Source: Bacteroidota bacterium
Lineage (GTDB): Bacteria > Bacteroidota > Bacteroidia > Chitinophagales > Chitinophagaceae
NCBI GenBank assembly: GCA_018267545.1
Contig: JAFDYG010000115.1
Coordinates: 1 to 64,000 of the forward strand
Direction: 5' to 3'
DNA: 64,000 nt
The notes under the pieces are model-generated. The model was not told the origin of the DNA, ran no database searches, and worked only from the letters and a program-made list of their open reading frames with translations. Shown one piece after another: positions 49,302 to 64,000 of this stretch (position 1 is its first letter; each line of letters begins with the position of its first letter). A program made the position numbers and the translations under genes.

Positions 49302-50402
49302 TTAGTGTTGATGGATGATCTTTTCTGCGTTGGTCCGATAGAGCTTGCGGAGAACCTCTTTGGAAAGGTTGAATCCATACAGCGCCCAGTGGTAGTCGGA
49401 CATGGAGGAGTCGTAAAAATGTTCGTCCGCCGTCTCCAGAATGCGGAACGTGCTGCGGTACATCGCGCCTTCCGTGCCCATATCCGTACCATAGACGAGA
49501 CGGTCCTGCCACTTGGTTATAAAGGCGGCGGCGAAGCGGGGTATGGGTCCCGTCTCGGCGTAACGGGCGGCAATGTCGGCATATAAGTTGGGGTGTTTGG
49601 CGAACAGGTCTCCGAGGACGTTGAGGTCGGAGCAGCAGTTGGCGAAGTGACAGGCGACGAAAGTGACGCCGGGATTTTCGCCTACGGCCTTCGATAGACC
49701 GGCGATGAGCTGGTCATGGTCGAGCTTGCCGGGAACGTCCATATTGACGTGCCATTTTGCCGCATTCATGAGACCGTCGTTGGAAGCGTCGGGCTGCTCG
49801 TACATCCAGCGGTCTTCGGCGACGTGGATGATGATGGGTATCTTGAGCGTTCCGCAGCGGGTGAGCAGCGGTTTCAGAGCGGGGTTATCGATATGGATGC
49901 CCCGGCCGGGAGTAGGCTGGGAATAGAGCTCCCCTTCTCCTTTATCACCCAGCTCACCGATACCGCGTGCGCCTTTACGGTAGCAGCGCTCGAGCTCGGC
50001 GATCGCTTTCTCCGCCCACCCTGGCTGGCCGAAGCCGGTGTAATCGAAACCGCAGTAGAAAATGAAACGGTCCTTATAACGGCTGTACTTATCGACGATC
50101 GAGTCGAAGCGTGCGCCGGTGGAATAAGTCATCAGGACGGTGCGGGCGATGCCGGAGGAGTCCATGGCTCTTACCCAGCGGTCGATTTCCTCGTCTGACT
50201 TCGCGTAGGGATGGCTGTGCATATCGGTGACCGGCCAGGCCGCCTTTGTGATCCGCGTGACGGGTGTATTGTAAATGGAAACGGGGTGATAGTTCTTTAG
50301 GAGAATGTTGACGCGGCTGGCGGCTTCTTCATCAGGCGTTTGAGCGAGGCCGCTGAGCTTTAAGCCAAGCAGGAGCAGTAGTGCTGGGAGGAGTCTTTTC
50401 AT
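49302..50402 (-). CDS. Exported amidohydrolase-2 (COG2159-like) protein
   Basis: Metal-dependent TIM-barrel hydrolase of 366 residues with a signal peptide (MKRLLPALLLLLGLKLSGLA). Metal ligands are suggested by VTDMHSHPYA (H-x-H near 60), PIIIHVAEDRW (His near 195), VTFVACHFANC (His near 250) and LVYGTDMGTE (Asp near 313). Its position between the aldolase and GH36 genes, with a 4-bp overlap to the former, ties it to sugar use, yet it should act outside the cytoplasm. A periplasmic deacylase or lactonase is possible; the substrate is unknown. Confidence 0.7.
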   Translation of the reverse strand: MKRLLPALLLLLGLKLSGLAQTPDEEAASRVNILLKNYHPVSIYNTPVTRITKAAWPVTDMHSHPYAKSDEEIDRWVRAMDSSGIARTVLMTYSTGARFDSIVDKYSRYKDRFIFYCGFDYTGFGQPGWAEKAIAELERCYRKGARGIGELGDKGEGELYSQPTPGRGIHIDNPALKPLLTRCGTLKIPIIIHVAEDRWMYEQPDASNDGLMNAAKWHVNMDVPGKLDHDQLIAGLSKAVGENPGVTFVACHFANCCSDLNVLGDLFAKHPNLYADIAARYAETGPIPRFAAAFITKWQDRLVYGTDMGTEGAMYRSTFRILETADEHFYDSSMSDYHWALYGFNLSKEVLRKLYRTNAEKIIHQH

Positions 50403-51214
50403 GAGTTGATGACGTTGAGCTTGCGGGTGATCAATTCCTGTACTTCATGGATGGCTTCGGGAAAGATTTTGCGCAGGTCTATCTCGTCGGTATCGGTGAG
50501 CAGGACTTGCAGCTTCTTCATAAAAGTATTCTTGGTTTCGGTGGCCAGGTTTATCTTGCTGATCCCGAGCCGGACGGCTTCGCGCAAGGCTTGGTCGGGG
50601 ATACCGCTGCTGCCGTGCAAGACAAGGGCGCTTTTGGTGACGGCGCGGATTTCTGCCAGTCGGTCGAGGCGAAGCTTTGGCGGGTCTTTATAAAAACCAT
50701 GGGCGTTACCGATAGCGATTGCAAGGGCATCGATACCTGTGGCCGTCTCGAAACGCTGGGCGTCGCCGGCGGTGGTGGGTTCGGCCTGCTGGTTCTGTCC
50801 GAGCTTGGCGACATATCCCAACTCTGCCTCTACATTGGCGCCGTATGGTTCGGCTATTCGCACCACCTCGCTGGTGATCCGGACGTTTTCCTCGAAAGAC
50901 GATTCGCTGGCGTCGATCATCACGCTGTCGAAGCCGGCGTCGAGACATTTTCGGATGAGGTTGGCGTTGCTGCCATGGTCCAGGTGGAGCCATCCTTCTA
51001 CTTCCATCTCTTTGAGCAGGGCGCGGGCCATGTTGGCGGCGGGCTGGATGCCGAGATAGTTGAGAGAGCTTTCGCTGAGCTGGAGGATGAGGGGACAGCT
51101 GGCGCTGCGTGCGGCAAGCAGCAGGCCCTTAAGGGTCTCGAAGTTATAGAAATTGACGGCCAACAATGCTTTTTTCCTCGCACTGTACCCGGCCAGGGTT
51201 TCTTTCATTGTCAT
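50399..51214 (-). CDS. class II ketose-bisphosphate aldolase (GatY/KbaY-like)
   Basis: Zinc-dependent cytoplasmic aldolase of 271 residues. Family motifs are WLHLDHGSN (Asp 79 and His 80), FDSVMIDASESSFEENV, VEAELGYVAKLGQ, ALAIAIGNAHGFYK (metal His), LVLHGSSGIP (metal His and phosphate loop) and ISKINLATET. It most likely cleaves tagatose-1,6-bisphosphate (or fructose-1,6-bisphosphate) to triose phosphates, given the AgaS-like protein and sugar kinase upstream in the operon. It overlaps the kinase gene and the amidohydrolase gene by 4 bp each. Confidence 0.88.
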   Translation of the reverse strand: MTMKETLAGYSARKKALLAVNFYNFETLKGLLLAARSASCPLILQLSESSLNYLGIQPAANMARALLKEMEVEGWLHLDHGSNANLIRKCLDAGFDSVMIDASESSFEENVRITSEVVRIAEPYGANVEAELGYVAKLGQNQQAEPTTAGDAQRFETATGIDALAIAIGNAHGFYKDPPKLRLDRLAEIRAVTKSALVLHGSSGIPDQALREAVRLGISKINLATETKNTFMKKLQVLLTDTDEIDLRKIFPEAIHEVQELITRKLNVINS

Positions 51215-52161
51215 ATTGCTACATTAAATTTTTCCCATGCGAGCTGTTTTACCAGCGTATAATCTGCGAAGGCGGTGGTTCCTCCGTTATGCGTGGTATT
51301 GATCGCGCCGCAGAGAGCGCCGTGGGCCATACATTCTGCGAGAGGCGCGCCTTTGACGTATAGATGGAGGAAACCGGCGTTGAAGCTGTCTCCCGCTCCG
51401 ATGGCGTCGGCCACGTCGCGGTTGAGAAAGGCGGGCTGGCGAAGCCGTGTTGTTCCCTGCTGGAGGAGGGCGCCTTCATTGCCATTTTTTACGACGATGA
51501 TACGGGCAATGTCTGCCAGCGACGAAAGGCTTTCTTCGAGGCTTTCCTTGCCGGCGAGTCTCTTCAGCTCTTCTGCATTGGGTAGAAAGACGTCGACGAG
51601 GGGCAACAGCTGCCGGAGATCGAGGTCCCATTTTTCGGCCGGGTCCCATTGCGGGTCCAGGGAAGTCGTGAGCCCCCTTTGTTTGGCGCGCCTGAAAAGC
51701 GAGATCAGACCGGGTTTGAGTGCAGGCTGGAGAAAGGCTGAGCTGACGTGGAGGTGCCGTGCGGAGTCAAGCAGATCGTCCGTGATGTCAGCAGCGCTGA
51801 ATTCGTCCATGGCGCCGGGATAGGTAACCATGGCCCGGTCTTCTGCGACGCTGAGGGCTACGGTAAGACCGGTATCGGCGGAATCGCTTTGAATGATGGA
51901 GCGGGTGTCGACGCCCCTGGCGGCGAGGTCGGCTAAGATCTTTGCGGCAAAATTATCCCGGCCTACACGGCCGCAGAAGGCGACACGGGTGCCGAGGACG
52001 CTGAGGTTGCTGGCGAATATCGCGGAGCTGCTGCCAAGGGTAATCAGCATCCGGCTGGCGATGATCTCTTTACCGAGCTGGGGAAACGCGCCGAGGCGGT
52101 CCATGATCAGGTCGATATTGAGCTCACCGGCAACGAGTACGTCTATTTGTTTATCGGACAT
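51211..52161 (-). CDS. PfkB family sugar kinase
   Basis: Ribokinase-like (PfkB) carbohydrate kinase of 316 residues. The N-terminal signature is ITLGSSSAIFASNLSVLGTR, and the ATP/anion-hole motif is DAIGAGDSFNAGFLHLY (catalytic Asp near 258). VFLPNAEELKRLAG is also typical. In this operon a role as tagatose-6-phosphate kinase feeding the aldolase is plausible, but PfkB proteins cannot be assigned to a substrate by sequence alone. It is 41 bp downstream of agaS and overlaps the aldolase gene by 4 bp. Confidence 0.9.
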   Translation of the reverse strand: MSDKQIDVLVAGELNIDLIMDRLGAFPQLGKEIIASRMLITLGSSSAIFASNLSVLGTRVAFCGRVGRDNFAAKILADLAARGVDTRSIIQSDSADTGLTVALSVAEDRAMVTYPGAMDEFSAADITDDLLDSARHLHVSSAFLQPALKPGLISLFRRAKQRGLTTSLDPQWDPAEKWDLDLRQLLPLVDVFLPNAEELKRLAGKESLEESLSSLADIARIIVVKNGNEGALLQQGTTRLRQPAFLNRDVADAIGAGDSFNAGFLHLYVKGAPLAECMAHGALCGAINTTHNGGTTAFADYTLVKQLAWEKFNVAI

Positions 52162-52202
52162 AAACCTGTTTTTTTAGCGTATATATTTTCAACCGGAAAG
52201 GC

Positions 52203-53366
52203 TTAGGCTTCGACAGGATAGATCGTGACGCCTTCGACAATCCTGGATATGGCGCCGCTTACGGAAGGGCTGTCAGGCATCAGGCCAAGGCTAAGGCTTT
52301 TGAAAAATCCGAGCAGCTGGGCGGGAAGAATGCTGCAAACGGTAAGGAAGTCTTCCGCCAGCCGGCCCTCTCCACTGGAGAGCAGGATAGCCGTCTGAAG
52401 TCTTTCATGCTGGACAGGCTGTTCGGCAATGGCCAGGTGGAACAGGGCGCTGTTGCCCGTATCCATGGCTTGCAGCAGGTCTGTCTCGTACCGGCGTACG
52501 TATTCGTCGTTGCTAAAGAAATAAAAGATAAGGGTGGTTTCGTCGATAACGGCCTTGGGTCCATGCCGGAAGCCTAAATAAGAGTCGGCTTTACAGATAA
52601 TTTGTCCGTCGGTGAGCTCCTGTAATTTCAGAGCGGCTTCCGTTGCTGTACCGAAGAGAGGGCCCGAACCTAAAAATACGGCTCTGCCGAATTCTTTTTC
52701 CGCTATTTTCCGGATATTTTCCGTCTGACCGGTTATAATTTTCTCGGCAATGGAAGTCAGCAGCTGCACCTGGCTGCGGCAGTATTCCTTTTCGTTTGGC
52801 CGCGTAATGAGCAGGGCGGTCAGCAGCATGGAGGAATAGCTGCCGGTCATAGCGAGGCTTTTGTCGTTTGCCTCGGGGGGCAGCACAAAGACGGACACCG
52901 GATTGGAGGAACCATATTGCGCCAGTGCGCCATCTTCGTTACAGGTAATGATCAAATGGAAGCATTTTTTACAAAGCCGGTCGGCCAGCTCGAGCGCAGC
53001 GCAGCTTTCGGGGCTTTTGCCACTGCGGGCGAAAGAGACGATCAGGGGGCATTGGTCTTGTCTGAAATAATGCCGGGGATGAGAAAGGAGATCGGTAGTG
53101 GCTATGGCTCTCGTGATCTTGCCGGTACGGCTGAAAAAGCTGCCTATGAGAGAAAGACCGATAAAGGCGCTGGTGCCTGCTCCGGTCAGGACCACCTGGT
53201 CGGCTTCGCCAAGGGCATTATCTAAAAATTCCTGCAAACGTGTCGATTCCTGGTAATACTTTTCTTCCGTGCTTCTCCACAAGGCCGGCTGGCCGGCTAT
53301 TTCCCTTGCCGTGTGTAACGCTCCCCGGGCTAACAATTCGGTCTCGGGCAAGTTTAAGTAGGTCAT
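52203..53366 (-). CDS. agaS: AgaS-type SIS-domain sugar isomerase/deaminase
   Basis: Cytoplasmic protein of 387 residues with two SIS domains: VVLTGAGTSAFIGLSLIGSF and SFARSGKSPES in the first, VFLGSGPLFGTATEAALKLQ and FRHGPKAVIDE in the second. This is the AgaS group, which acts on galactosamine-6-phosphate or as tagatose-6-phosphate ketose/aldose isomerase. The start at 53366 (MTYLNLPETE) is chosen because a -7 element lies at 53384-53391, so the longer ORF beginning at 53405 would start upstream of its own promoter. It is first in the operon agaS-kinase-aldolase-amidohydrolase-GH36. Confidence 0.85.
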   Translation of the reverse strand: MTYLNLPETELLARGALHTAREIAGQPALWRSTEEKYYQESTRLQEFLDNALGEADQVVLTGAGTSAFIGLSLIGSFFSRTGKITRAIATTDLLSHPRHYFRQDQCPLIVSFARSGKSPESCAALELADRLCKKCFHLIITCNEDGALAQYGSSNPVSVFVLPPEANDKSLAMTGSYSSMLLTALLITRPNEKEYCRSQVQLLTSIAEKIITGQTENIRKIAEKEFGRAVFLGSGPLFGTATEAALKLQELTDGQIICKADSYLGFRHGPKAVIDETTLIFYFFSNDEYVRRYETDLLQAMDTGNSALFHLAIAEQPVQHERLQTAILLSSGEGRLAEDFLTVCSILPAQLLGFFKSLSLGLMPDSPSVSGAISRIVEGVTIYPVEA

Positions 53367-53383
53367 TTTCGATATTTTAAAAT

Positions 53384-53428
53384 CAAATATAGTAACTTCT
53401 TTCAAAAACTTACTAAATCTTTCGAAAG
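53384..53428 (-). promoter_or_regulatory. agaS promoter with DeoR-type repeats
   Basis: On the - strand TATATTTG (53391-53384) matches the -7 consensus exactly and would give a leader of about 10 nt. CTTTC at 53399-53403 and CTTTCGAAAG, a 10-bp palindrome at 53419-53428, are spaced 20 bp apart and overlap the core promoter, as expected for a repressor of the DeoR family. Confidence 0.5.
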
Positions 53429-53439
53429 CTTATTTTTAT

Positions 53440-53474
53440 TTTGTGTATAATCGATTATTACCTAGATATGTTTG
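53440..53474 (+). promoter_or_regulatory. deoR-family gene promoter
   Basis: TATGTTTG (53467-53474) matches the -7 consensus TAnnTTTG, and TTTG at 53440-53443 is a possible -33 element, with a spacer of 23 nt, slightly long. The predicted transcript starts near 53481, about 40 nt before the GTG start. Confidence 0.5.
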
Positions 53475-53521
53475 TTTTATAGTCGGATTTTAATTTCTTT
53501 TACATCCAATTCATTATTTCA

Positions 53522-54301
53522 GTGCCAAGAAAAATAAGAAATACCGTATCCAGGCGGAAGAAGATCCTGGAACGCATACAGGAGACGGGAGAAGTATTGA
53601 TCACCGGTCTTAGCAAAGAATTCGACGTGAGTGAGGTAACGATTCGCAATGACCTCGATTACCTGGAGCAGAAAAACCTGCTGATCCGGGCGAGGGGAGG
53701 GGCGATCCATTCGGATAGCCATGTGGGGATCGATCAGCGGCTGGCGGAGAAGAACAAGCTGCATACGCAGGAAAAGGCGGCTATCGGCAAGATGGCGGCT
53801 TCTCTTATCCGGGACGGGGAGACGGTGATCATCGACAGCGGCTCGACTACGGCGGAGATCGTCAAAAATCTGGGAAGCATCCGTCAGCTGAACGTGATCA
53901 CCAATGCGCTCAACATCGTCAATCAGCTGATGAACTATACGAATTTCAACGTTATTATACCGGGGGGGTATCTGCGGCAAAATTCCATGAGCCTGGTTGG
54001 GCCGCTGGCGGAGAATAATCTGCAGGGGTTCTATGTGGACAAGCTATTTCTGAGCACCGACGGTTTCGATACCGACCACGGCATCTACACCCCGAATATA
54101 GACGAGGCCCACCTGAATATTACGATGATCAATATCGCCAAGGACGTGATTCTGGTGACCGACAGCAGTAAGTTCAAGCGGAAGAGTCTGGCGCTGATCT
54201 GCACTATCGACAAGCTGAAGACGGTGATCACCGATCGCGGCATCCCGGCGGATGACAGGCATAAGCTGGAGGCTGCCGGCATACAGGTGATTATTGTATA
54301 G
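53522..54301 (+). CDS. DeoR/GlpR family transcriptional regulator (AgaR-like)
   Basis: Repressor of 259 residues. The start is GTG at 53522; no in-frame ATG gives a complete winged helix. The N-terminal HTH (about 8-60) contains LITGLSKEFDVSEVTIRNDL and the family tail NLLIRARGGAIH. The C-terminal DeoRC sugar-phosphate sensor has TVIIDSGSTTAEIVKNLG, LFLSTDGFDTDHGIYT and VILVTDSSKFKRKSLALI. It is divergent from the agaS operon (156 bp between starts) and probably responds to a phosphorylated intermediate such as tagatose-6-phosphate. It ends 2 bp from the convergent EamA gene. Confidence 0.93.
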   Translation: MPRKIRNTVSRRKKILERIQETGEVLITGLSKEFDVSEVTIRNDLDYLEQKNLLIRARGGAIHSDSHVGIDQRLAEKNKLHTQEKAAIGKMAASLIRDGETVIIDSGSTTAEIVKNLGSIRQLNVITNALNIVNQLMNYTNFNVIIPGGYLRQNSMSLVGPLAENNLQGFYVDKLFLSTDGFDTDHGIYTPNIDEAHLNITMINIAKDVILVTDSSKFKRKSLALICTIDKLKTVITDRGIPADDRHKLEAAGIQVIIV

Positions 54302-55564: not shown

Positions 55565-58500
55565 ATGCAATCAACTGCAAGTTTTCGGGCTCATTCAAGC
55601 GGTAAGCCCGGGCTCTTTCCTCTCTTTCTAAAAACATCCTTCGCAATGCTGCTGTTGCTCCTGGGACTTCTGGCAAACGCAGAAGGATTTTATCCCGGAG
55701 CCGGTCCCATCACCGGTAAAGTCACCAACTCCCAGGGAGAGCCGCTGGTGGGAATCAGCGTTATGATAAAAGGCAGCTCCATCGGCGTGACTACGGACAG
55801 TCGCGGGAACTATTCCATCAACGCTCCTTCGAACGCTGTCCTGATATTTTCTTATGTCGGATATACTTCGCGCGAAGTGGGAGTGGGCGGAAAGCTGACG
55901 ATCGATGTCTCGCTCGAGGAAAGTAATTCTTCTCTCAACCAGGTCGTGGTCGTAGGTTACGGCACATTGAAAAGAAAGGACCTCACGGGTTCCGTAGGTT
56001 CGGTGTCCGAAAAGGATATCAGCGATCTGTCGATAACTCGCGTCGACCAGGCGCTTTCGGGTAAGGTAGCCGGTGTTCAGGTCAAGACCGTATCCGGTCA
56101 GCCCGGCGCGGCTCCGCAGATCAGAGTCAGAGGTATCGGAAGTATTTCGGCCGGCATAGATCCCCTCTACGTCGTAGACGGTTTCCCCACGGACAATATA
56201 CAAACGCTCAGCCCCAACGATATCGAAAGCATCGATATCCTCAAAGACGCATCCGCTACGGCTATCTATGGCTCCCGCGGAGCCAACGGCGTCGTGATCA
56301 TCAATACCAAACGCGGCACCTCGAAGACCAGCATCATCAATTTCGAAACCAGCTATGGTTTGCAGTCGGTCTCCCGGATCCCCAAAACCATGAACGCCAA
56401 ACAGCTGGCCCAATACGCATTGGACGGCCTCCGAAATGCGAATGTCGACGCCGGCTCCAGCGTAGCCGGAGACCCGACCACCTGGGATTCACCGGTACAG
56501 CCGGTAGTGCTGAACATCCTCAACGGGACCGATAAAACGGATAACGTGATGACCAAACAGCTGCTGCGTACCGCGCCGATCTCACAATACTCCCTATCCG
56601 CCTACGGAGGCAACGAAAAGGTCAGGTATGGCGTGAGCGGCGAATACCTCACCCAGGACGGTATCGTTCTCGGGAGCGATTTCAAGCGCTATTCGATGAG
56701 GGCCAATATCGACGCGAAGCTAAACAACAAGCTCTCGGTAAAGATCAATCTCAACCCGTCTTATAACATCTCCAATATCATGTCCGAGAGCTCTCCGACA
56801 GACTATAATTATTATATTTCGGCAAGCCCGATCAATAGAGCGCAGCTGTGGCCGGCCTATCTTCCCGCGCGTACCGCTACGGGCGACTATTTTCAATATT
56901 CTTCCGACGTTGCATCGCCGGGCTGGAATCCCCTGGCCTGGGTACAGAACGTGACGAACAATAGGAAGGTCATGCGGGTGCTGGGAAACGTCAGCGCCGA
57001 ATATAAGGTCACCAACGACCTGGCATTGAATGTGCTGCTCGGAGCGACGCTGCAGAATGTGCGTTCCATGCAGTTCGTGCCCTCCCTTCCGGGACTCGCG
57101 GAAAACGGTGATTTCGTACCGAACGTAGCATCGGGTTTAGATAGTACTGCAGCGGACGTAAATTGGCTGACGGAATATACCGCCAATTATCGCAAAACCA
57201 TTTCGAAACATAGCTTTTCAGGCCTGGCTGGTTTTACCGTCCAAAAAGACCACCTGGAGTCCAATTATCTGACGAGCAACCGCTATCCGAATAACCTGGT
57301 CCCCACACTAAGCGCGGTGGCGGGCGTTCTTACCGGCGGCTCTGCCAACATCTCGGAATGGTCGCTTTTATCCTACCTCCTGCGGTTCAATTATAACTAT
57401 GACGGTAAATACTATATCACCGCTTCTGCCCGTACGGACGGCTCTTCCCGCTTCGGGTCGAAGAATAAGTACGGCTGGTTCCCATCCGTTGCGCTGGCCT
57501 GGAGAATCTCGGATGAAAAATTCCTGAAGGACGTGTCTTTCCTGAGCGAGCTGAAGCTGAGAGCCAGCTACGGCCAAACGGGGAACAACAATATCGGGAA
57601 CTATCAGCAATATGCAACCATCAATTACAACCGGTATGTATTGAACAATACCACTGCTACGGGCTTTTCTCCCGCGCTGCTGGCCAATCCATTGCTCACC
57701 TGGGAGAAGCAAAAAGCGGTGAATGCCGGTATCGATGCGAGCTTCTTCGATAGAAGGCTGTCCGTCACAGCGGACTATTTCAAGTCGAAAAATACCGACC
57801 TGTTATTGAACGTCAATATTCCCTCGATCACCGGTTTCTATAATACCCTGAAAAACATCGGCGAGGTGCAGAACAGCGGTTTCGAGCTGACCCTGACGAC
57901 GGTGAATGTCCGGGGCAAAAATTTCAATTGGACCACAGCGCTCAATTTCTCCACGTATCGTAACAAGGTGAACAAGCTCGGCCCCGGAGGAGACCCTATC
58001 TACTCGGGCTCCAACATCACGATGGTAGGTCAGCCGATCGGTATGTTCTATGGGTTCAAGACAAACGGCATCTACCTGAACCAGGCAGACGTCGACAAGA
58101 GCCCAATCTTTGGCGGCGGAACCTCCGTCCGCTCCCGTCCCGGGGACGTAAAATATGTCGACGTAAACGGCGACGGCGTCATCGATAATAAAGACCAGAC
58201 GATCATGGGCAATCCTTATCCCAAGTTCAACTATGGCATGACCAACAACCTTTCCTACCAGCAGCTTTCGCTGTCCTTTACCCTCCAGGGTACCTATGGC
58301 GGCCAGGTGCTGAACATGGCGGCTATCGGCCAGGAGAATACAAGGGGTAACCGCGTCGCGCAGCTGGCTTCGCAGATCAACTACTGGAAATCGCCCACCG
58401 ATGTAGGCGATGGCAATACACCCAGACCCAACAATTCCGTGAAAGGGAATAACCGGGCGGTGAGCCAGCGTTATCTCGACAGAGGCTCTTTTATGCGGGT

Positions 58501-58729
58501 GAATAATATTACCCTGGCTTATCAGCTCAACGAAAGGGCCTTCTCGAGGATTGGTCTCAAATCGGCCCGCATCTTCGTGAACGCCACGAATGCGATCACC
58601 ATCAGCAAGAATACCGTTTCCTTCAACCCCGACGTAAGCAATAGCGGAAGCCCGCTGACGCCGGGAGTGGACTTCAACGACTATCCGCTGCCAAAGACTT
58701 TTGTGGGAGGAATAAGCATTGGTTTTTAA
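55565..58729 (+). CDS. SusC/RagA TonB-dependent receptor, PUL 3
   Basis: Outer-membrane importer of 1054 residues. A longer N terminus (about 45 residues) carries a hydrophobic signal segment ending near LANAEG. The CarboxypepD_reg-like domain (about 50-125) is followed by a plug with NQVVVVGYGTLKRKDLTGSV, VSGQPGAAPQIRVRGIGSI and DPLYVVDGFPTDNI. The barrel ends KTFVGGISIGF. No STN domain is present. Promoter elements lie about 110 bp upstream. SusD follows after 27 bp. Confidence 0.97.
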   Translation: MQSTASFRAHSSGKPGLFPLFLKTSFAMLLLLLGLLANAEGFYPGAGPITGKVTNSQGEPLVGISVMIKGSSIGVTTDSRGNYSINAPSNAVLIFSYVGYTSREVGVGGKLTIDVSLEESNSSLNQVVVVGYGTLKRKDLTGSVGSVSEKDISDLSITRVDQALSGKVAGVQVKTVSGQPGAAPQIRVRGIGSISAGIDPLYVVDGFPTDNIQTLSPNDIESIDILKDASATAIYGSRGANGVVIINTKRGTSKTSIINFETSYGLQSVSRIPKTMNAKQLAQYALDGLRNANVDAGSSVAGDPTTWDSPVQPVVLNILNGTDKTDNVMTKQLLRTAPISQYSLSAYGGNEKVRYGVSGEYLTQDGIVLGSDFKRYSMRANIDAKLNNKLSVKINLNPSYNISNIMSESSPTDYNYYISASPINRAQLWPAYLPARTATGDYFQYSSDVASPGWNPLAWVQNVTNNRKVMRVLGNVSAEYKVTNDLALNVLLGATLQNVRSMQFVPSLPGLAENGDFVPNVASGLDSTAADVNWLTEYTANYRKTISKHSFSGLAGFTVQKDHLESNYLTSNRYPNNLVPTLSAVAGVLTGGSANISEWSLLSYLLRFNYNYDGKYYITASARTDGSSRFGSKNKYGWFPSVALAWRISDEKFLKDVSFLSELKLRASYGQTGNNNIGNYQQYATINYNRYVLNNTTATGFSPALLANPLLTWEKQKAVNAGIDASFFDRRLSVTADYFKSKNTDLLLNVNIPSITGFYNTLKNIGEVQNSGFELTLTTVNVRGKNFNWTTALNFSTYRNKVNKLGPGGDPIYSGSNITMVGQPIGMFYGFKTNGIYLNQADVDKSPIFGGGTSVRSRPGDVKYVDVNGDGVIDNKDQTIMGNPYPKFNYGMTNNLSYQQLSLSFTLQGTYGGQVLNMAAIGQENTRGNRVAQLASQINYWKSPTDVGDGNTPRPNNSVKGNNRAVSQRYLDRGSFMRVNNITLAYQLNERAFSRIGLKSARIFVNATNAITISKNTVSFNPDVSNSGSPLTPGVDFNDYPLPKTFVGGISIGF

Positions 58730-58756: not shown

Positions 58757-60190
58757 ATGAAAAAAATAGTTTATATAGCTGCGCTAATAGCGATAACAGG
58801 ACTATCCTGCAGCAAAAAATTTATCGAGCTCACGCCCATTTCGTCGGTAAGCACCGAATCGTTATACAAAACCGACAAAGATTTCAGCGATGCCCTCACC
58901 GGCGCATACAGCCTGCTCCGGGATCAATACCAGTCGTTCTGGCAGTTTGACCTTCCCAGCGACGACGCCCGTCACCAATGGCCGTCGGAAGACATCCTCC
59001 TTCGATTGGATAATTATACCTATCAGAACAACGAGGACTTTTTCTATAGCACCTGGGGAAACTATTATGGGGTGATTTTTCGGGTCAATACCATTCTCGA
59101 CAAGATCGCAAAGGCCGATGCAGCCGTCATTACCAATAAGAACCGGTACATCGGGGAGGCCAAATTCCTCCGGGCCCTATGCTACTTCGACCTGGTGCGC
59201 ATTTTTGGGGACGTGCCAAAAGTGACCACCGCGATCTCCGACGCAGAGGCCCTGAAGACCCCGAGGGAGAAGGTGGAGACTATTTATACTGACGTCATCC
59301 TCAAGGACCTCCAGGATGCGGCCGGTGCGCTGCCTCCCAAGTATACCGGTGCAGACCTCGGAAGAGCGACCGCCGGCGCTGCGACGGCCCTGCTCGGCAA
59401 GGCCTATCTTACCAAGAAAGATTTTCCCAATGCGGAGACCACCTTGAAAAAGGTGACTACGATGGGCTATTCGCTTCTGCCCAATTATGCCGACCTATGG
59501 GATTATTCGAAGGATGAGCATCACAGCGAGTACATCTTCGATATCGAATACGAGACGGGGATTCAGCAGGGCAGCGTATATACCAATATGTTCTTCCCCC
59601 GTTTCACGCCCGCGGCAGACTTTTACCAGGTGTACGGCGGCACGGGAGATTCATACAATCCCTCCAATGGACTTTTCACTATTTTCGAATCGGGCGACAA
59701 GAGGGCGGCAATAACGGCCTCCAATGGTTTTACCGACAAGAACGGCGTATTCCAGTCGCTGAACGGCAGCGCGGGGGCAAAAACGATGACGCTGAAGTAC
59801 ATTACTCCCGTCAGTATCAGCGGCGACAGCAAAGCGAACTGGAAGGTCATCCGGTATGGCGACGTACTGCTCATGCTGGCCGAGGCGCTAAACGAAAACA
59901 ACAAGACCAGTGAGGCGATAACGTATCTGAACATGATCAGGACCAGGGCGGGCGTATCCGTTTACACCACGATGACCCAGGCATCCTTTCGGACTTCGAT
60001 CTACCTGGAACGCCGCCGCGAGCTGTCCTTTGAAGGACAACGCTGGTTCGACCTGGTGCGGACGGGCCTGGCCTTCTCCACGCTTCAATCGCTGGGGATG
60101 AAAGACTACATGGTATTATTTCCCGTACCCCTCGCACAGATCCAGATCGTCAACAATAAGTCGATTTTTGCACAGAATCCTGGCTGGTAA
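58757..60190 (+). CDS. SusD/RagB lipoprotein, PUL 3
   Basis: Glycan-binding lipoprotein of 477 residues. The lipobox is GLSC (about 15-18), followed by SKKFIELTPISSVSTESLYK. Helices include AKFLRALCYFDLVRIFGDVP, and the end has LSFEGQRWFDLVRTGLA and SIFAQNPGW, the classic SusD terminus. It is shorter than the other two SusD proteins here and so may bind a smaller ligand. It is followed after 13 bp by the first of three related TIM-barrel-like proteins. Confidence 0.96.
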   Translation: MKKIVYIAALIAITGLSCSKKFIELTPISSVSTESLYKTDKDFSDALTGAYSLLRDQYQSFWQFDLPSDDARHQWPSEDILLRLDNYTYQNNEDFFYSTWGNYYGVIFRVNTILDKIAKADAAVITNKNRYIGEAKFLRALCYFDLVRIFGDVPKVTTAISDAEALKTPREKVETIYTDVILKDLQDAAGALPPKYTGADLGRATAGAATALLGKAYLTKKDFPNAETTLKKVTTMGYSLLPNYADLWDYSKDEHHSEYIFDIEYETGIQQGSVYTNMFFPRFTPAADFYQVYGGTGDSYNPSNGLFTIFESGDKRAAITASNGFTDKNGVFQSLNGSAGAKTMTLKYITPVSISGDSKANWKVIRYGDVLLMLAEALNENNKTSEAITYLNMIRTRAGVSVYTTMTQASFRTSIYLERRRELSFEGQRWFDLVRTGLAFSTLQSLGMKDYMVLFPVPLAQIQIVNNKSIFAQNPGW

Positions 60191-60203: not shown

Positions 60204-61607
60204 ATGAATAATTCCGAGACGATGATGGTCGGTGTACAGGCGGGGGCCGTATCCTTTGTGGACGAAGGGGTAGAGAAGGTGCTGGATATCTTTCAGCAAA
60301 AAGCGGCGGCCAACACCGTCGTGCTCACTACATTCACGCATGGCCGGGGACTCGCGGGACGACAGATGCCGGGAGTGAAGTTCCCGGACCATGGGTCGAT
60401 GGAATCGGACGAGGCAAATTTCTACGGAGGCAACTACGCCACCCCTCACCCGGAATACTACAAGGATACGATCATCAAAGTCCCCCATGCCCCCGACCTT
60501 GGCAAGTTTGACGTTTTGGAAGCGCTGGCAGGTCCGGCGAAAAAACGGAACATGAAGGTCATCTGCGGCTTCGAAGATCAGTGGCGCACGGAGGTTCCCG
60601 GTGTTTCGGAATGCCTGGAGGTGGACCTGATGGGAAGAAGGGCCAATACCCTCTGCCTTTTCAACCCTAACGTACGCGCCTTCTGGCGGGCGTTGGTGAC
60701 CGATACGGTCCGGTCCTACGACGTGGATGGAATCATGCTTTTCAACGAGAGGAACGGCCCCTTGCTGAATGCGCTTGGTGCAAGTCATTTCCAGGCGATA
60801 GAGCCGGGAAAAGTAACCTGTTTTTGCGAGTTTCATGTGGCCGAGGCTAAAAGACTCGGGATCGACGTGGCCCGCGCAAAGGAAGGATATAGTAAGTTGG
60901 CGGTCTATATCCGGGCGTCGCTCAAGGGACAGCGGCCATCCGACGGCTATTACGTCGGGTTCGAGCGGCTGTTGCTCGAATATCCCGAGATCGTTGCCTG
61001 GGACCGGCTGTTCGACAAGGGGAAGCACGAGGTGCTGAACGAGGTATATGCGGCCGCCAAGGCCGTCAGGAAAGAGACACAGGTAGGATTTCATATCGAG
61101 CACGTCAATTCGTTCAACCCTTTTTTCCGCGCTACCCGTGACTATGCCGAGCTGGCGGTAAAGGCCGATTTTCTCAAGATCGTCGTCTACAACAATTGCG
61201 GCGGCGAACGGTATGCCAATTTTATCCGTAACATCGGGTCCACCTTATTCAGGGATGTACCGCTGGAGGAGCTGATGCGGATGAATAACCGCCTGTTGAA
61301 TTATTCCAATGAAGCCGCGCTGGACCAGCTGGCGACCGCGGGTCTTTCGTCCGATTATGTATTCCGTGAAATGCAAAGGGCCAAAGCGGGCGTAGAAGGA
61401 AAGTGCGGGGTAGTGGCGGGCATCGACGTAAACATCCCGACGTCGGAAGGCAGCCGGAAGGCGTCTCCCGAAGATACCTATGCGGCTACGCTGGCGGCAT
61501 TGAAGGCCGGCTCGGACGGTATCGTCCTTTCCCGCAAATATTCGGAGATGATGCTGGGTAATATAGAAGGCGCAGGACGCGCGTTACGTGAGACGATAAA
61601 AAAATAA
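60204..61607 (+). CDS. Unrecognised TIM-barrel-like protein, cytosolic paralog A
   Basis: Protein of 467 residues with no signal; the start at 60204 (MNNSETMMVG) is preferred because the upstream ORF extension runs through the SusD stop. It belongs to the same family as the next two genes. Shared motifs are GVQAGAVSFVDEGVEKVLDI near the N terminus, GGNYATPHPEYY, VDGIMLFNERNGP (about 178-190), VTCFCEFHV, FHIEHVNSFNPFFRATRDY and DGIVLSRKYSEMMLGNIEGA at the end. The repeating strand-helix pattern and Glu/Asp-bearing strand ends suggest a TIM-barrel glycosidase or isomerase. I cannot name the family. Paralogs B and C have Tat signals; this one would stay in the cytoplasm. Confidence 0.7.
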   Translation: MNNSETMMVGVQAGAVSFVDEGVEKVLDIFQQKAAANTVVLTTFTHGRGLAGRQMPGVKFPDHGSMESDEANFYGGNYATPHPEYYKDTIIKVPHAPDLGKFDVLEALAGPAKKRNMKVICGFEDQWRTEVPGVSECLEVDLMGRRANTLCLFNPNVRAFWRALVTDTVRSYDVDGIMLFNERNGPLLNALGASHFQAIEPGKVTCFCEFHVAEAKRLGIDVARAKEGYSKLAVYIRASLKGQRPSDGYYVGFERLLLEYPEIVAWDRLFDKGKHEVLNEVYAAAKAVRKETQVGFHIEHVNSFNPFFRATRDYAELAVKADFLKIVVYNNCGGERYANFIRNIGSTLFRDVPLEELMRMNNRLLNYSNEAALDQLATAGLSSDYVFREMQRAKAGVEGKCGVVAGIDVNIPTSEGSRKASPEDTYAATLAALKAGSDGIVLSRKYSEMMLGNIEGAGRALRETIKK

Positions 61608-61617
61608 AAAATACCAA

Positions 61618-63171
61618 ATGAGAAAGAATTCGATAAAGAGGATCAACCTGGGTGCGGCGTCACCATCACGTCGGAATTTTCTGAAAAAGACTTCTGCTGC
61701 AGCGGTCGCGATGGCCGCCTCTCCTCTTGCTTTTGCAGGGAGTGGAAGCGCCGGCGGCGGCTCGTCCGAAAAAACCATCGGCATCCAGATCGGCGCCGCC
61801 TCCTTTTATGACGAAGGAGTCGACAAGGTGCTCGACATCGTCCAGACAAAGGGCGCGATCAATACGATCTTTCTCACTACCTTTTGTTATGACCGCGGTC
61901 TCAACGGCCGCCAGATGCCGGGACACCCTTTTCCCGACCATGGCCCGGCCCAATCGGACGAGAAATTCTACCACGGCGGCAACTACGCCACTCCCCACGC
62001 AAAATACTATACGCATACGGCTATCAAGGGGGACAAGATGAAAGCGCCCGACTACGGCAATTCCGATATCCTGCAGAAGGTAATCCCTGCCGCAAGAAAG
62101 AGGGGCATCAAAATATTCGCGTCGGTGCTCGACAGCTTCGACTACCCCGATGACGTTCGGAAGAATATCTCCAGTTATATGGAGGTCGATCTCGCCGGCA
62201 ACAAAGGACAGGCGATGTGCTTTTACAAACCGGACGTGAAGGAGTTCTGGAAGGCGGTGGTCACGGACCTTACCTCTTCCTACGACCTCGACGGCATCCT
62301 GTTCTTCAACGAACGCAACGGCCCCCTGACCAATACCATCGGCGCCAATTTCGACGTGGGCTTCCACGCCTCTCGGATCACCTGTTTCTGCGACGATCAC
62401 AAGCGGGCCGCGGCGGCAAGAAATATCGACTTCGAGCGCGTAAAAGAAGGGTATCGCCGCCTGGACAAGCTCGTTCAGCAGTCGCTGAAAGACGTTCGCC
62501 CCACCGATGGCTACTATGTAGAGTTCCAGCGCCTGATCCTCAGCTACCCCGAGCTGGTGGCTTATCACCAGATCTTCGATCACGGCAAGCACGAGATTCT
62601 GAAGGACGTCAGGGACGCGGTAAAAGCGGTGAATAGCAAGCTGCAGGTTGGATTTCACATCGAGCACGAGAACTCTTTCAATCCGTTCTTCAGGGCTACC
62701 CGGGATTATGAAGACCTGGCTTCGAGGGCGGATTTTCTAAAAATAGTCGCTTACAACAATGCCGGTGGCGAACGATATGCCAGCTTTATCCGGACCATCG
62801 GCTCCACGATGTTCCGCGACGTTCCCCTCGAGGAGCTGATGCGCTTCAACAACCACCTGCTCAACTATGGCAACGAGCCCTCGCTCGAGCAGCTCCCGGA
62901 GGCCGGGCTTTCGGCGGACTATGTCTACCGGGAAACACGCCGCGCAATCGACGGGACAAAAGGAAAGTGCAGGGTCCTTACCGGCATCGACATGAACATC
63001 CCTATAAAAAAGACAAGCCGTTTCGCTTCTCCCGACGACACGTACAAGGCTACCCAGGCGGCAATGAAAGCCGGCGGTGATGGAGTCATCCTGTCGAGAA
63101 AATATTCCGAGATGATGCTGGGCAACCTCGAGGCGGCCGGCCGTGCTATCCGGGAAGGGTTGAAAGCTTAA
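61618..63171 (+). CDS. Unrecognised TIM-barrel-like protein, Tat-exported paralog B
   Basis: Protein of 517 residues. The N terminus has a twin-arginine signal, SPSRRNFLKKTSAAAVAMAA (about 16-35). The mature part repeats the family motifs: IGIQIGAASFYDEGVDKVLD, GGNYATPHAKYY, LDGILFFNERNGP, ITCFCDDHKRAA, FHIEHENSFNPFFRATRDY and GVILSRKYSEMMLGNLEAAG. The Glu in FNERNGP and the Glu in the HIEHENSFNP block are candidate catalytic residues. Tat export implies folding, often with a cofactor or metal, before export. It is 10 bp after paralog A in the SusCD operon, so it probably processes the imported glycan in the periplasm. Confidence 0.7.
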   Translation: MRKNSIKRINLGAASPSRRNFLKKTSAAAVAMAASPLAFAGSGSAGGGSSEKTIGIQIGAASFYDEGVDKVLDIVQTKGAINTIFLTTFCYDRGLNGRQMPGHPFPDHGPAQSDEKFYHGGNYATPHAKYYTHTAIKGDKMKAPDYGNSDILQKVIPAARKRGIKIFASVLDSFDYPDDVRKNISSYMEVDLAGNKGQAMCFYKPDVKEFWKAVVTDLTSSYDLDGILFFNERNGPLTNTIGANFDVGFHASRITCFCDDHKRAAAARNIDFERVKEGYRRLDKLVQQSLKDVRPTDGYYVEFQRLILSYPELVAYHQIFDHGKHEILKDVRDAVKAVNSKLQVGFHIEHENSFNPFFRATRDYEDLASRADFLKIVAYNNAGGERYASFIRTIGSTMFRDVPLEELMRFNNHLLNYGNEPSLEQLPEAGLSADYVYRETRRAIDGTKGKCRVLTGIDMNIPIKKTSRFASPDDTYKATQAAMKAGGDGVILSRKYSEMMLGNLEAAGRAIREGLKA

Positions 63172-63183
63172 ACTATCCAAAGC

Positions 63184-64000
63184 ATGAAAAAAATATATAC
63201 TGGGGCAGCCAATCCATCGCGCAGAAAATTCATCAAGAGCGGCGGCGCGCTGGCCGCGGCGATAGCCGTGGCTCCAGTTGCGACCCTGGCATCGAAGGAC
63301 AGCCCGGAAAAGCTGATCGGCATCCAGCTGGGCGCAGCCTCTTTTATGGACGAAGGGGTAGAGCAGGTCCTTGACCTCCTTCAGGAGCGCGCAGGGGTGA
63401 ACACGATTTTTATGAGCACGTTCTGCTATGACCGCGGTCTCAACGGGCGGCAGATCCCGGGTTATCCCTTCCCGGACCATGGCCCGAAGGAATCGGATGA
63501 GGGTACCTATCACGGCGGCTTTTACGCTACGCCGCACGCTAAATTCTATGAGAAAACCGCGATCAAAGGGGATAAGATGACGGCCCCCGACTTTGGCGGC
63601 GTAGACGTGCTGGCTCGTGTGCTGCCCGTTGCCAAGAAGAAGGGCATCAAGGTTTTTGCATCGGTGCTGGATACATTCGAATATCCCGCAGACGTCCTCG
63701 AATCACAGCTCAAGGATTTCGTGGAGGTCGACCTGCAGGGGCAGCGGAAAAAGACCATTTGTTTCTTCCGGCCCGACGTCCGGGAGTTCTGGAAGGCGGT
63801 GGTCACAGACCTTGCTTCTTCCTACGATCTGGACGGGATCATGTTCTTCAATGAACGAAATGGCCCGTTGATCAATGCCGTCGGCGCCACGCATGCCGAA
63901 AGCTTTTCGTCCGCACACATCACCTGTTTCTGTGAAGATCATAAAAGGGCGGCGGCCGAAAGAGGCATCGATTTCGAGAGGGCAAAAGAAGGGTTTCATA
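63184..64000 (+). CDS. Unrecognised TIM-barrel-like protein, Tat-exported paralog C, partial
   Basis: Third member of the family, starting at ATG 63184 and open to the right edge (272 codons visible). A Tat signal is present: NPSRRKFIKSGGALAAAIAV (about 10-29). The same motifs follow: IGIQLGAASFMDEGVEQVLD, YDRGLNGRQIPGYPFPDHGP, GGFYATPHAKFY, LDGIMFFNERNGP and ITCFCEDHKRAA. It lies 12 bp after paralog B. It is closer to B than to A by eye, so it probably arose by duplication of B. Confidence 0.7.
   Translation, partial: MKKIYTGAANPSRRKFIKSGGALAAAIAVAPVATLASKDSPEKLIGIQLGAASFMDEGVEQVLDLLQERAGVNTIFMSTFCYDRGLNGRQIPGYPFPDHGPKESDEGTYHGGFYATPHAKFYEKTAIKGDKMTAPDFGGVDVLARVLPVAKKKGIKVFASVLDTFEYPADVLESQLKDFVEVDLQGQRKKTICFFRPDVREFWKAVVTDLASSYDLDGIMFFNERNGPLINAVGATHAESFSSAHITCFCEDHKRAAAERGIDFERAKEGFH

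Follow-up and report, generated by a model that had tools for sequence, protein, structure and literature searches.

The closest described counterparts of the locus considered here fall into two groups. The first comprises (beta/alpha)8 glycosidases of the GH42 type, in which four cysteines form a zinc site, together with the GHL6 and GHL10 (Cwp19-type) families. The second comprises the hitchhikers of the twin-arginine translocation (Tat) pathway, PaoABC and similar, whose co-export mechanism is outlined in PMC4273604. Here we describe three homologous genes, A, B and C, that follow a SusC/SusD pair at the end of a 64,000-nucleotide window (the stretch of DNA analysed, positions 1 to 64,000 of contig JAFDYG010000115.1 from a Chitinophagaceae genome of the Bacteroidota). 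C is cut at position 64,000, and its complete open reading frame (ORF) of 511 amino acids (aa) lies on the same contig (L011:8184-9719). Our best overall explanation, to which we give a probability of about one half, is that the three proteins belong to an unnamed glycoside hydrolase family that lies towards GH42 and GHL6 within the (beta/alpha)8 glycosidases and acts on an acidic glycan. The unexpected and new part of the analysis is a pattern suggesting that the export leader has been exchanged between paralogues in different operons.

Relationship to the GHL6 and GH42 glycosidases

The first-pass annotation had described three homologues in one operon directly after SusC/SusD, with no standard glycoside hydrolase among them. 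This observation is confirmed by the ORFs, by the Pfam SusC and SusD models and by pairwise identities of 58% (A-B), 66% (B-C) and 58% (A-C), and TAT-signal models are the only ones in Pfam and NCBIfam whose cut-offs are reached by any of the three proteins. GHL6 (PF14871, Pfam cut-off 35 bits) scores 19.2 bits for B and 13.4 for C as cut by the window, with A not listed, and GHL10 (PF02638, cut-off 27.9 bits) scores 18.7 for A, 16.4 for B and 19.1 for the cut C. A sibling in another genome (G623) exceeds the GHL10 cut-off at 31.2 bits when its pieces are added, which places the border between the family and GHL10 close by, so that the description "unrecognised" holds for A, B and C only just. 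At E values up to 1, GHL10 matches all 15 scanned members, with a best value of 1e-7, and GHL6 matches 11 of the 15.

Profile comparison points more clearly to GHL6 and GH42. Alignments for hhalign were built from the fetched genomes, with target sets of 7 rows for GH42, 4 for GHL6 (four of six loci, the other two having no ORF that covers the match), 9 for GHL10, 2 for GH29, 2 for GH92 and 4 for the enolase superfamily. The query was the leader-free core of 23 family members, excluding two contig-end fragments (L145, L146) and a remote relative, L015 (C235), which is left out because it lacks the glutamate of the FNERNGP block. With this core, GHL6 reached 95.6% (E 1.2e-8), GH42 71.5% (E 3.6e-5), GHL10 35.6% and GH29 6.8%; the controls gave 0.2% for GH92, 0.1% for the enolase superfamily and 0.1-0.4% for reversed GH42, GHL6, GHL10 and GH29. 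A PDB sequence search with B alone found only designed barrels (E 0.53 and 1.9), and PDB matches were rejected as evidence of family. As judged from these profiles, the A/B/C family is an uncharacterised relative of the GHL6/GH42-type glycosidases, likely a metal-binding glycosidase with a barrel fold, and the barrel first proposed from the strand-helix pattern is thereby indicated.

GHL6 is the best profile match and also carries a cysteine before strand 4 and a CxCxxC set, but the aligned GHL6 rows have no counterpart of NER, and the proteins are shorter. With GH42 the strand-4 Asn-Glu and the cysteines align; however, GH42 reaches only 71.5%, no significant match extends beyond about 103 columns, and its strand-7 nucleophile Glu has no invariant equivalent here. 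GHL10 matches all scanned members at E up to 1, but the x-Glu of this family corresponds to Asp-Asp in Cwp19 (PMC5765458).

Across the 23 members 33 columns are invariant and include, in the numbering of B used throughout, Glu66, His108, Glu232, Arg274, Lys336, Lys375, Tyr379, Arg386, Arg442, Arg494 and Glu498. The glutamate of FNERNGP (Glu232) is invariant in 23/23; in the GH42 alignment (71.5-74.4%) Asn231-Glu232 meets Asn-Glu, with the Asn varying across the family and the Glu constant. The FHIEH Glu is kept in only 17/23 and is consequently a poor catalytic candidate. Asp458, the proposed strand-7 residue on a tentative strand assignment, is kept in 20/23 and replaced by Gly in 3/23, so that a classical two-Glu machinery lacks sequence support and neither Asp458 nor the FHIEH Glu is a safe second catalytic residue.

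The earlier guess of a metal or cofactor is borne out to the extent that a conserved Cys/Cys/Cys/(His or Cys) set fits a metal. Cys201, Cys256 and Cys258 are each kept in 22/23 members and meet conserved cysteines in the GH42 alignment, of the kind that hold zinc in that family, and position 261 is His in 18 members and Cys in four. The sole exception, L010, lacks all four ligands, as would be expected from the loss of one metal site. Open-access literature yielded nothing on this family or on leader exchange between paralogues, although an unnamed family cannot be searched for by name and this negative is accordingly weak evidence of novelty.

Export leaders and their proposed exchange between paralogues

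The Tat leaders read initially in B (SRRNF) and C (SRRKF) are recovered by profile: B scores 22.7 bits with TIGR01409 TAT_signal_seq (NCBIfam cut-off 16.7) and C 24.0 bits with PF10518 TAT_signal (Pfam cut-off 22.7), and TatC is encoded in the same genome, so that both proteins combine a twin-arginine leader with a translocase as expected of Tat substrates. A carries no RRx[FLIVM] motif even in its longest in-frame extension. Among the 23 members, 18 have an RRx[FLIVM] leader, one has KRGDF at the same place and four are leaderless, namely A, its orthologue in a Chitinophagales metagenome-assembled genome (MAG; L009), and the second copies in G461 and in Parabacteroides distasonis; in these four the conserved core starts between residues 6 and 25, and extending the frame upstream as far as it stays open brings in no RR motif.

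Five operons are SusCD-linked (the window, L009, G461, P. distasonis and C494) and together hold 12 members, eight with an RR leader and four leaderless. At least two members are present in each of the five, and each leaderless copy directly adjoins a leader-bearing one; C494 has two leader-bearing copies. The 11 members outside such operons all bear leaders, one of them of the KR type; they occupy ten loci in which SusD was not noticed in the ORFs read, a judgement made by reading rather than by profile and on several short contigs.

Trees computed on the core with leaders removed, in versions of 18 and 23 rows, reject monophyly of the leaderless copies by the approximately unbiased (AU) test (p = 0.0043 and 3e-5, respectively). 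Not one of 200 bootstrap trees (0%) unites the leaderless copies, and three changes of leader state are required by branches with good support. B, C, the L009 orthologues of both and the leaderless G461 and P. distasonis copies group together (99/99), with A outside this group beside the leader-bearing C494 copy (90/93). The leaderless G461 copy groups closely with two leader-bearing ones, L141 and L143 (100/99). No sibling of L143 was seen in the flanks read, and L141 starts 99 bases from its contig end. The leaderless role falls to an A-type copy in the window operon and to a B/C-type copy, beside an exported sibling, in P. distasonis and G461. A supported clade joining the A-type copies with all leader-bearing siblings was dropped as a proposal, as the 23-row tree does not firmly place the exported P. 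distasonis copy and others.

The exchange suggested by this pattern would fit either co-export or use in two compartments, and for the leaderless sibling we lean slightly towards co-export with its leader-bearing neighbour. In its full form, the proposal would be that paralogous glycosidases leave the cytosol through Tat as a mixed complex on a single leader, and that the leader has moved between paralogues so that either sibling can be the carrier; we put this forward tentatively, as a possible but somewhat improbable account. The likeness to the Tat hitchhikers is that a leaderless protein is encoded beside one with a Tat leader. The difference is that the partners here would be paralogues, with the leader on different paralogues in different operons, as seen from gene adjacency and leader distribution. 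If true, co-export would make leader-based localisation wrong for such proteins and would extend hitchhiking to glycosidases and to interchangeable carriers.

Operon partners, substrate class and rival explanations

The genes downstream of C encode a DUF386/YhcH-type protein (by Pfam) that begins with a signal-like stretch, a member of the histidinol dehydrogenase family, a membrane-type protein of 464 aa and, cut by the contig end, a protein of the enolase superfamily that carries an RR leader. L009 has the same gene order, with A, B and C 81-85% identical, the permease and DUF386 protein being assigned there by position only, and its enolase-superfamily protein likewise has an RR leader. The nearest relatives of this last protein are sugar-acid dehydratases, all below NCBIfam cut-offs. 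DUF386 is found by Pfam in three SusCD-linked operons, with an ORF at the same place in a fourth, and the DUF386 proteins start with signal-like stretches as judged by eye. The P. distasonis operon encodes a glycerate kinase (482.8 bits) and a GntP permease (89.7 bits against a cut-off of 22.5) that is annotated as SLC13, and in the G461 operon DUF386 and a GHL6 protein accompany a 2-keto-3-deoxygluconate permease, KdgT (398.6 bits). E. coli YhcH is described in PMC8141875 as a zinc anomerase for Neu5Ac and KDN, that is, for 2-keto-3-deoxy acids. Because of the DUF386/YhcH, enolase-superfamily, GntP/KdgT permease, glycerate kinase and HpsN-like dehydrogenase partners we favour an acidic sugar as substrate, possibly a 2-keto-3-deoxy acid or its precursor.

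Plausibly, the substrate imported by the SusCD pair is an acidic oligosaccharide or glycoside, which A/B/C-type enzymes would cleave in the periplasm, with the FNERNGP Glu at the end of strand 4 as the acid/base. Lys375, Tyr379, Arg386, Arg494 and Glu498 would form part of the pocket lining and might bind a carboxylate, and Cys201, Cys256, Cys258 and His261 would bind a structural metal, which we propose as the reason for folded export by Tat. The acidic product might then be opened by the DUF386/YhcH-type protein and dehydrated by the enolase-superfamily protein before an organic-acid permease carries it inward. The family, which has no assigned activity, occurs in sugar-utilisation operons of the human gut species P. 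distasonis and of Chitinophagales-type genomes, and its substrate is a gap in glycan catabolism.

Several results weigh against parts of this picture. The hhalign-aligned region is limited to about residues 134-275 of B, approximately strands 3-4 plus the following loop, and strands 5-8 were assigned by eye. A PDB profile search gave only chance-level amylase-type matches (best E 0.08), and no invariant carboxylate occupies the expected strand-7 position among the 23 members. The 464-aa permease-like protein of the window operon, putatively GntP-like, has no Pfam or NCBIfam match, and in the C494 operon no permease was noticed. For the leader exchange, label shuffles on the 23-row tree reach equally few changes in 85 of 500 cases, so that the leader states show no unusual clustering. 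Several forks deep in the tree stay open, with L010, Granulicella and others on long branches, and the four leaderless copies come from just four genomes.

The first-pass annotation had read the locus as the same chemistry carried out in two compartments. Its factual basis stands, as A is leaderless and B and C are Tat-type, but co-export in a mixed complex would explain the leader pattern equally well, so that this is one of two readings and the first-pass interpretation as a whole is partly supported. A division in which the leaderless copy is cytosolic and acts on imported product, and the Tat copies act in the periplasm on longer substrate, falls in our estimate somewhat short of even odds. 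A retains all the invariant residues, and the operons also encode organic-acid permeases, together with a glycerate kinase or an HpsN-like dehydrogenase that is probably cytosolic; however, the leaderless sibling varies between operons (the AU result for 23 rows), C494 manages with two leader-bearing copies, and the 11 members outside SusCD operons include no leaderless one, even though a cytosolic copy on its own could suffice.

A different objection concerns the chemistry itself: the glycosidase superfamily might have supplied a lyase, epimerase or other barrel enzyme for acidic sugars rather than a hydrolase. Export of sugar oxidoreductases and isomerases by Tat is common in Bacteroidota, and both the want of an invariant strand-7 carboxylate and the invariant Lys375, Tyr379, Arg386 and Arg494 would suit carboxylate-directed chemistry. 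Nevertheless, every detected relative is a glycosidase-type model and Glu232 aligns with the GH42 acid/base position, and we consider a non-hydrolase unlikely. Far less probable still is an operon for sulfonated sugars or glycerols in which the downstream dehydrogenase (L011:10395-11684) acts on sulfopropanediol. This protein does find HpsN/DHPS dehydrogenases as its best PDB matches, with 384 bits where the highest-scoring histidinol dehydrogenase has 277, it keeps the Lys of the GDK motif, and its own genome encodes a separate, better-scoring histidinol dehydrogenase. Yet the residue that recognises the sulfonate, His126 of CpHpsN (PMC11382572), is Met in both the L011 and L009 copies, as counted on the alignment. 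The dehydrogenase may act on a new acidic substrate.

Layout of the locus and distribution of the family

The genes from SusD to C are co-directional and separated by gaps of 13, 10 and 12 bases (Table 1). Of the sequence blocks initially listed as common to all three proteins, FNERNGP and TCFC are indeed present in A, B and C. FHIEH.NSFNPFFRATRDY and SRKYSEMMLGN are exact only in A and B; the C versions, which lie past the window end, are FHIEHVNSWNPFYRAGRNY and SRKYSEMMLAN.

Table 1. Features of the SusCD-linked operon, in window coordinates.
Feature	Position	Strand	Basis
SusC-type TonB-dependent receptor	55565..58729	+	Pfam Plug 70.8 bits, CarbopepD_reg_2
SusD-type outer-membrane binding protein	58757..60190	+	Pfam SusD_RagB 106.8 bits
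A, leaderless member, 467 aa from ATG 60204	60204..61607	+	ORF; catalytic candidates kept
FNERNGP of A	60741..60761	+	Sequence
B, Tat-leader member, 517 aa	61618..63171	+	ORF
Tat leader of B, SRRNF	61618..61737	+	Motif and TAT model; end judged by eye
FNERNGP of B, with putative acid/base Glu232 (codon 62311-62313)	62305..62325	+	Invariant 23/23; GH42 Asn-Glu alignment
TCFC of B (Cys256, Cys258), candidate metal ligands together with Cys201 and His261	62380..62391	+	Conservation
C, Tat-leader member, 5' part; remainder past window end	63184..64000	+	ORF
Tat leader of C, SRRKF	63184..63291	+	Motif and TAT model; end judged by eye
FNERNGP of C	63847..63867	+	Sequence

Upstream, window positions 49302-54301 encode an AgaR-type repressor (above its NCBIfam cut-off), an AgaS-family isomerase, a PfkB kinase, a class II aldolase and an amidohydrolase, an amino-sugar or ketose catabolic cluster that adjoins the SusCD operon. 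These GalNAc-type genes (AgaR, AgaS, PfkB, class II aldolase) were set aside as a substrate clue because the syntenic L009 cluster has sigma-factor and FecR-like ORFs at that place, as read from the ORFs.

The family occurs at eight places in its own genome, seven strong and one remote (C235), which amounts to four full-length members and one remote one beyond A, B and C and argues for a real, expanded family rather than chance. Elsewhere the counts are lower bounds, as the large genome scans scored few candidates per genome. B as query matched 2/395 genomes in a phylum sample (its own and a weak 106-residue match) and 5/294 in a family sample, one of them weakly, and A matched 6/33 in a genus sample, in which G986 appears to be the L009 genome. 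A profile query of an order sample matched 25/396, near full-length only in the own genome and G623, the other 23 matches being short. A scan of viral contigs returned 49 pattern stretches and no relative of the family. Three plasmid records matched, two of them full-length, from P. distasonis (two adjacent copies) and Granulicella tundricola.

A divergent branch (L014:2779-4311, L019:1477-3057 and L144:7443-9017; 100/100 support) is marked by WGAERMGP and CFCxHC; these members all bear Tat leaders, and no SusD was noticed nearby. At L015:5104-11206 two GH92-type genes, one of them tested with Pfam, are followed by the remote barrel protein, behind a SusC/SusD-like pair; the TCFCPSC motif is present there, without a FNER-type Glu. 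On the G. tundricola plasmid (L027:146-17826) the annotated neighbours of a family member are genes like those of hydroxyproline catabolism, two genes of the arabinofuranosidase type and peptidases, a context suggesting the breakdown of plant hydroxyproline-rich glycoproteins.

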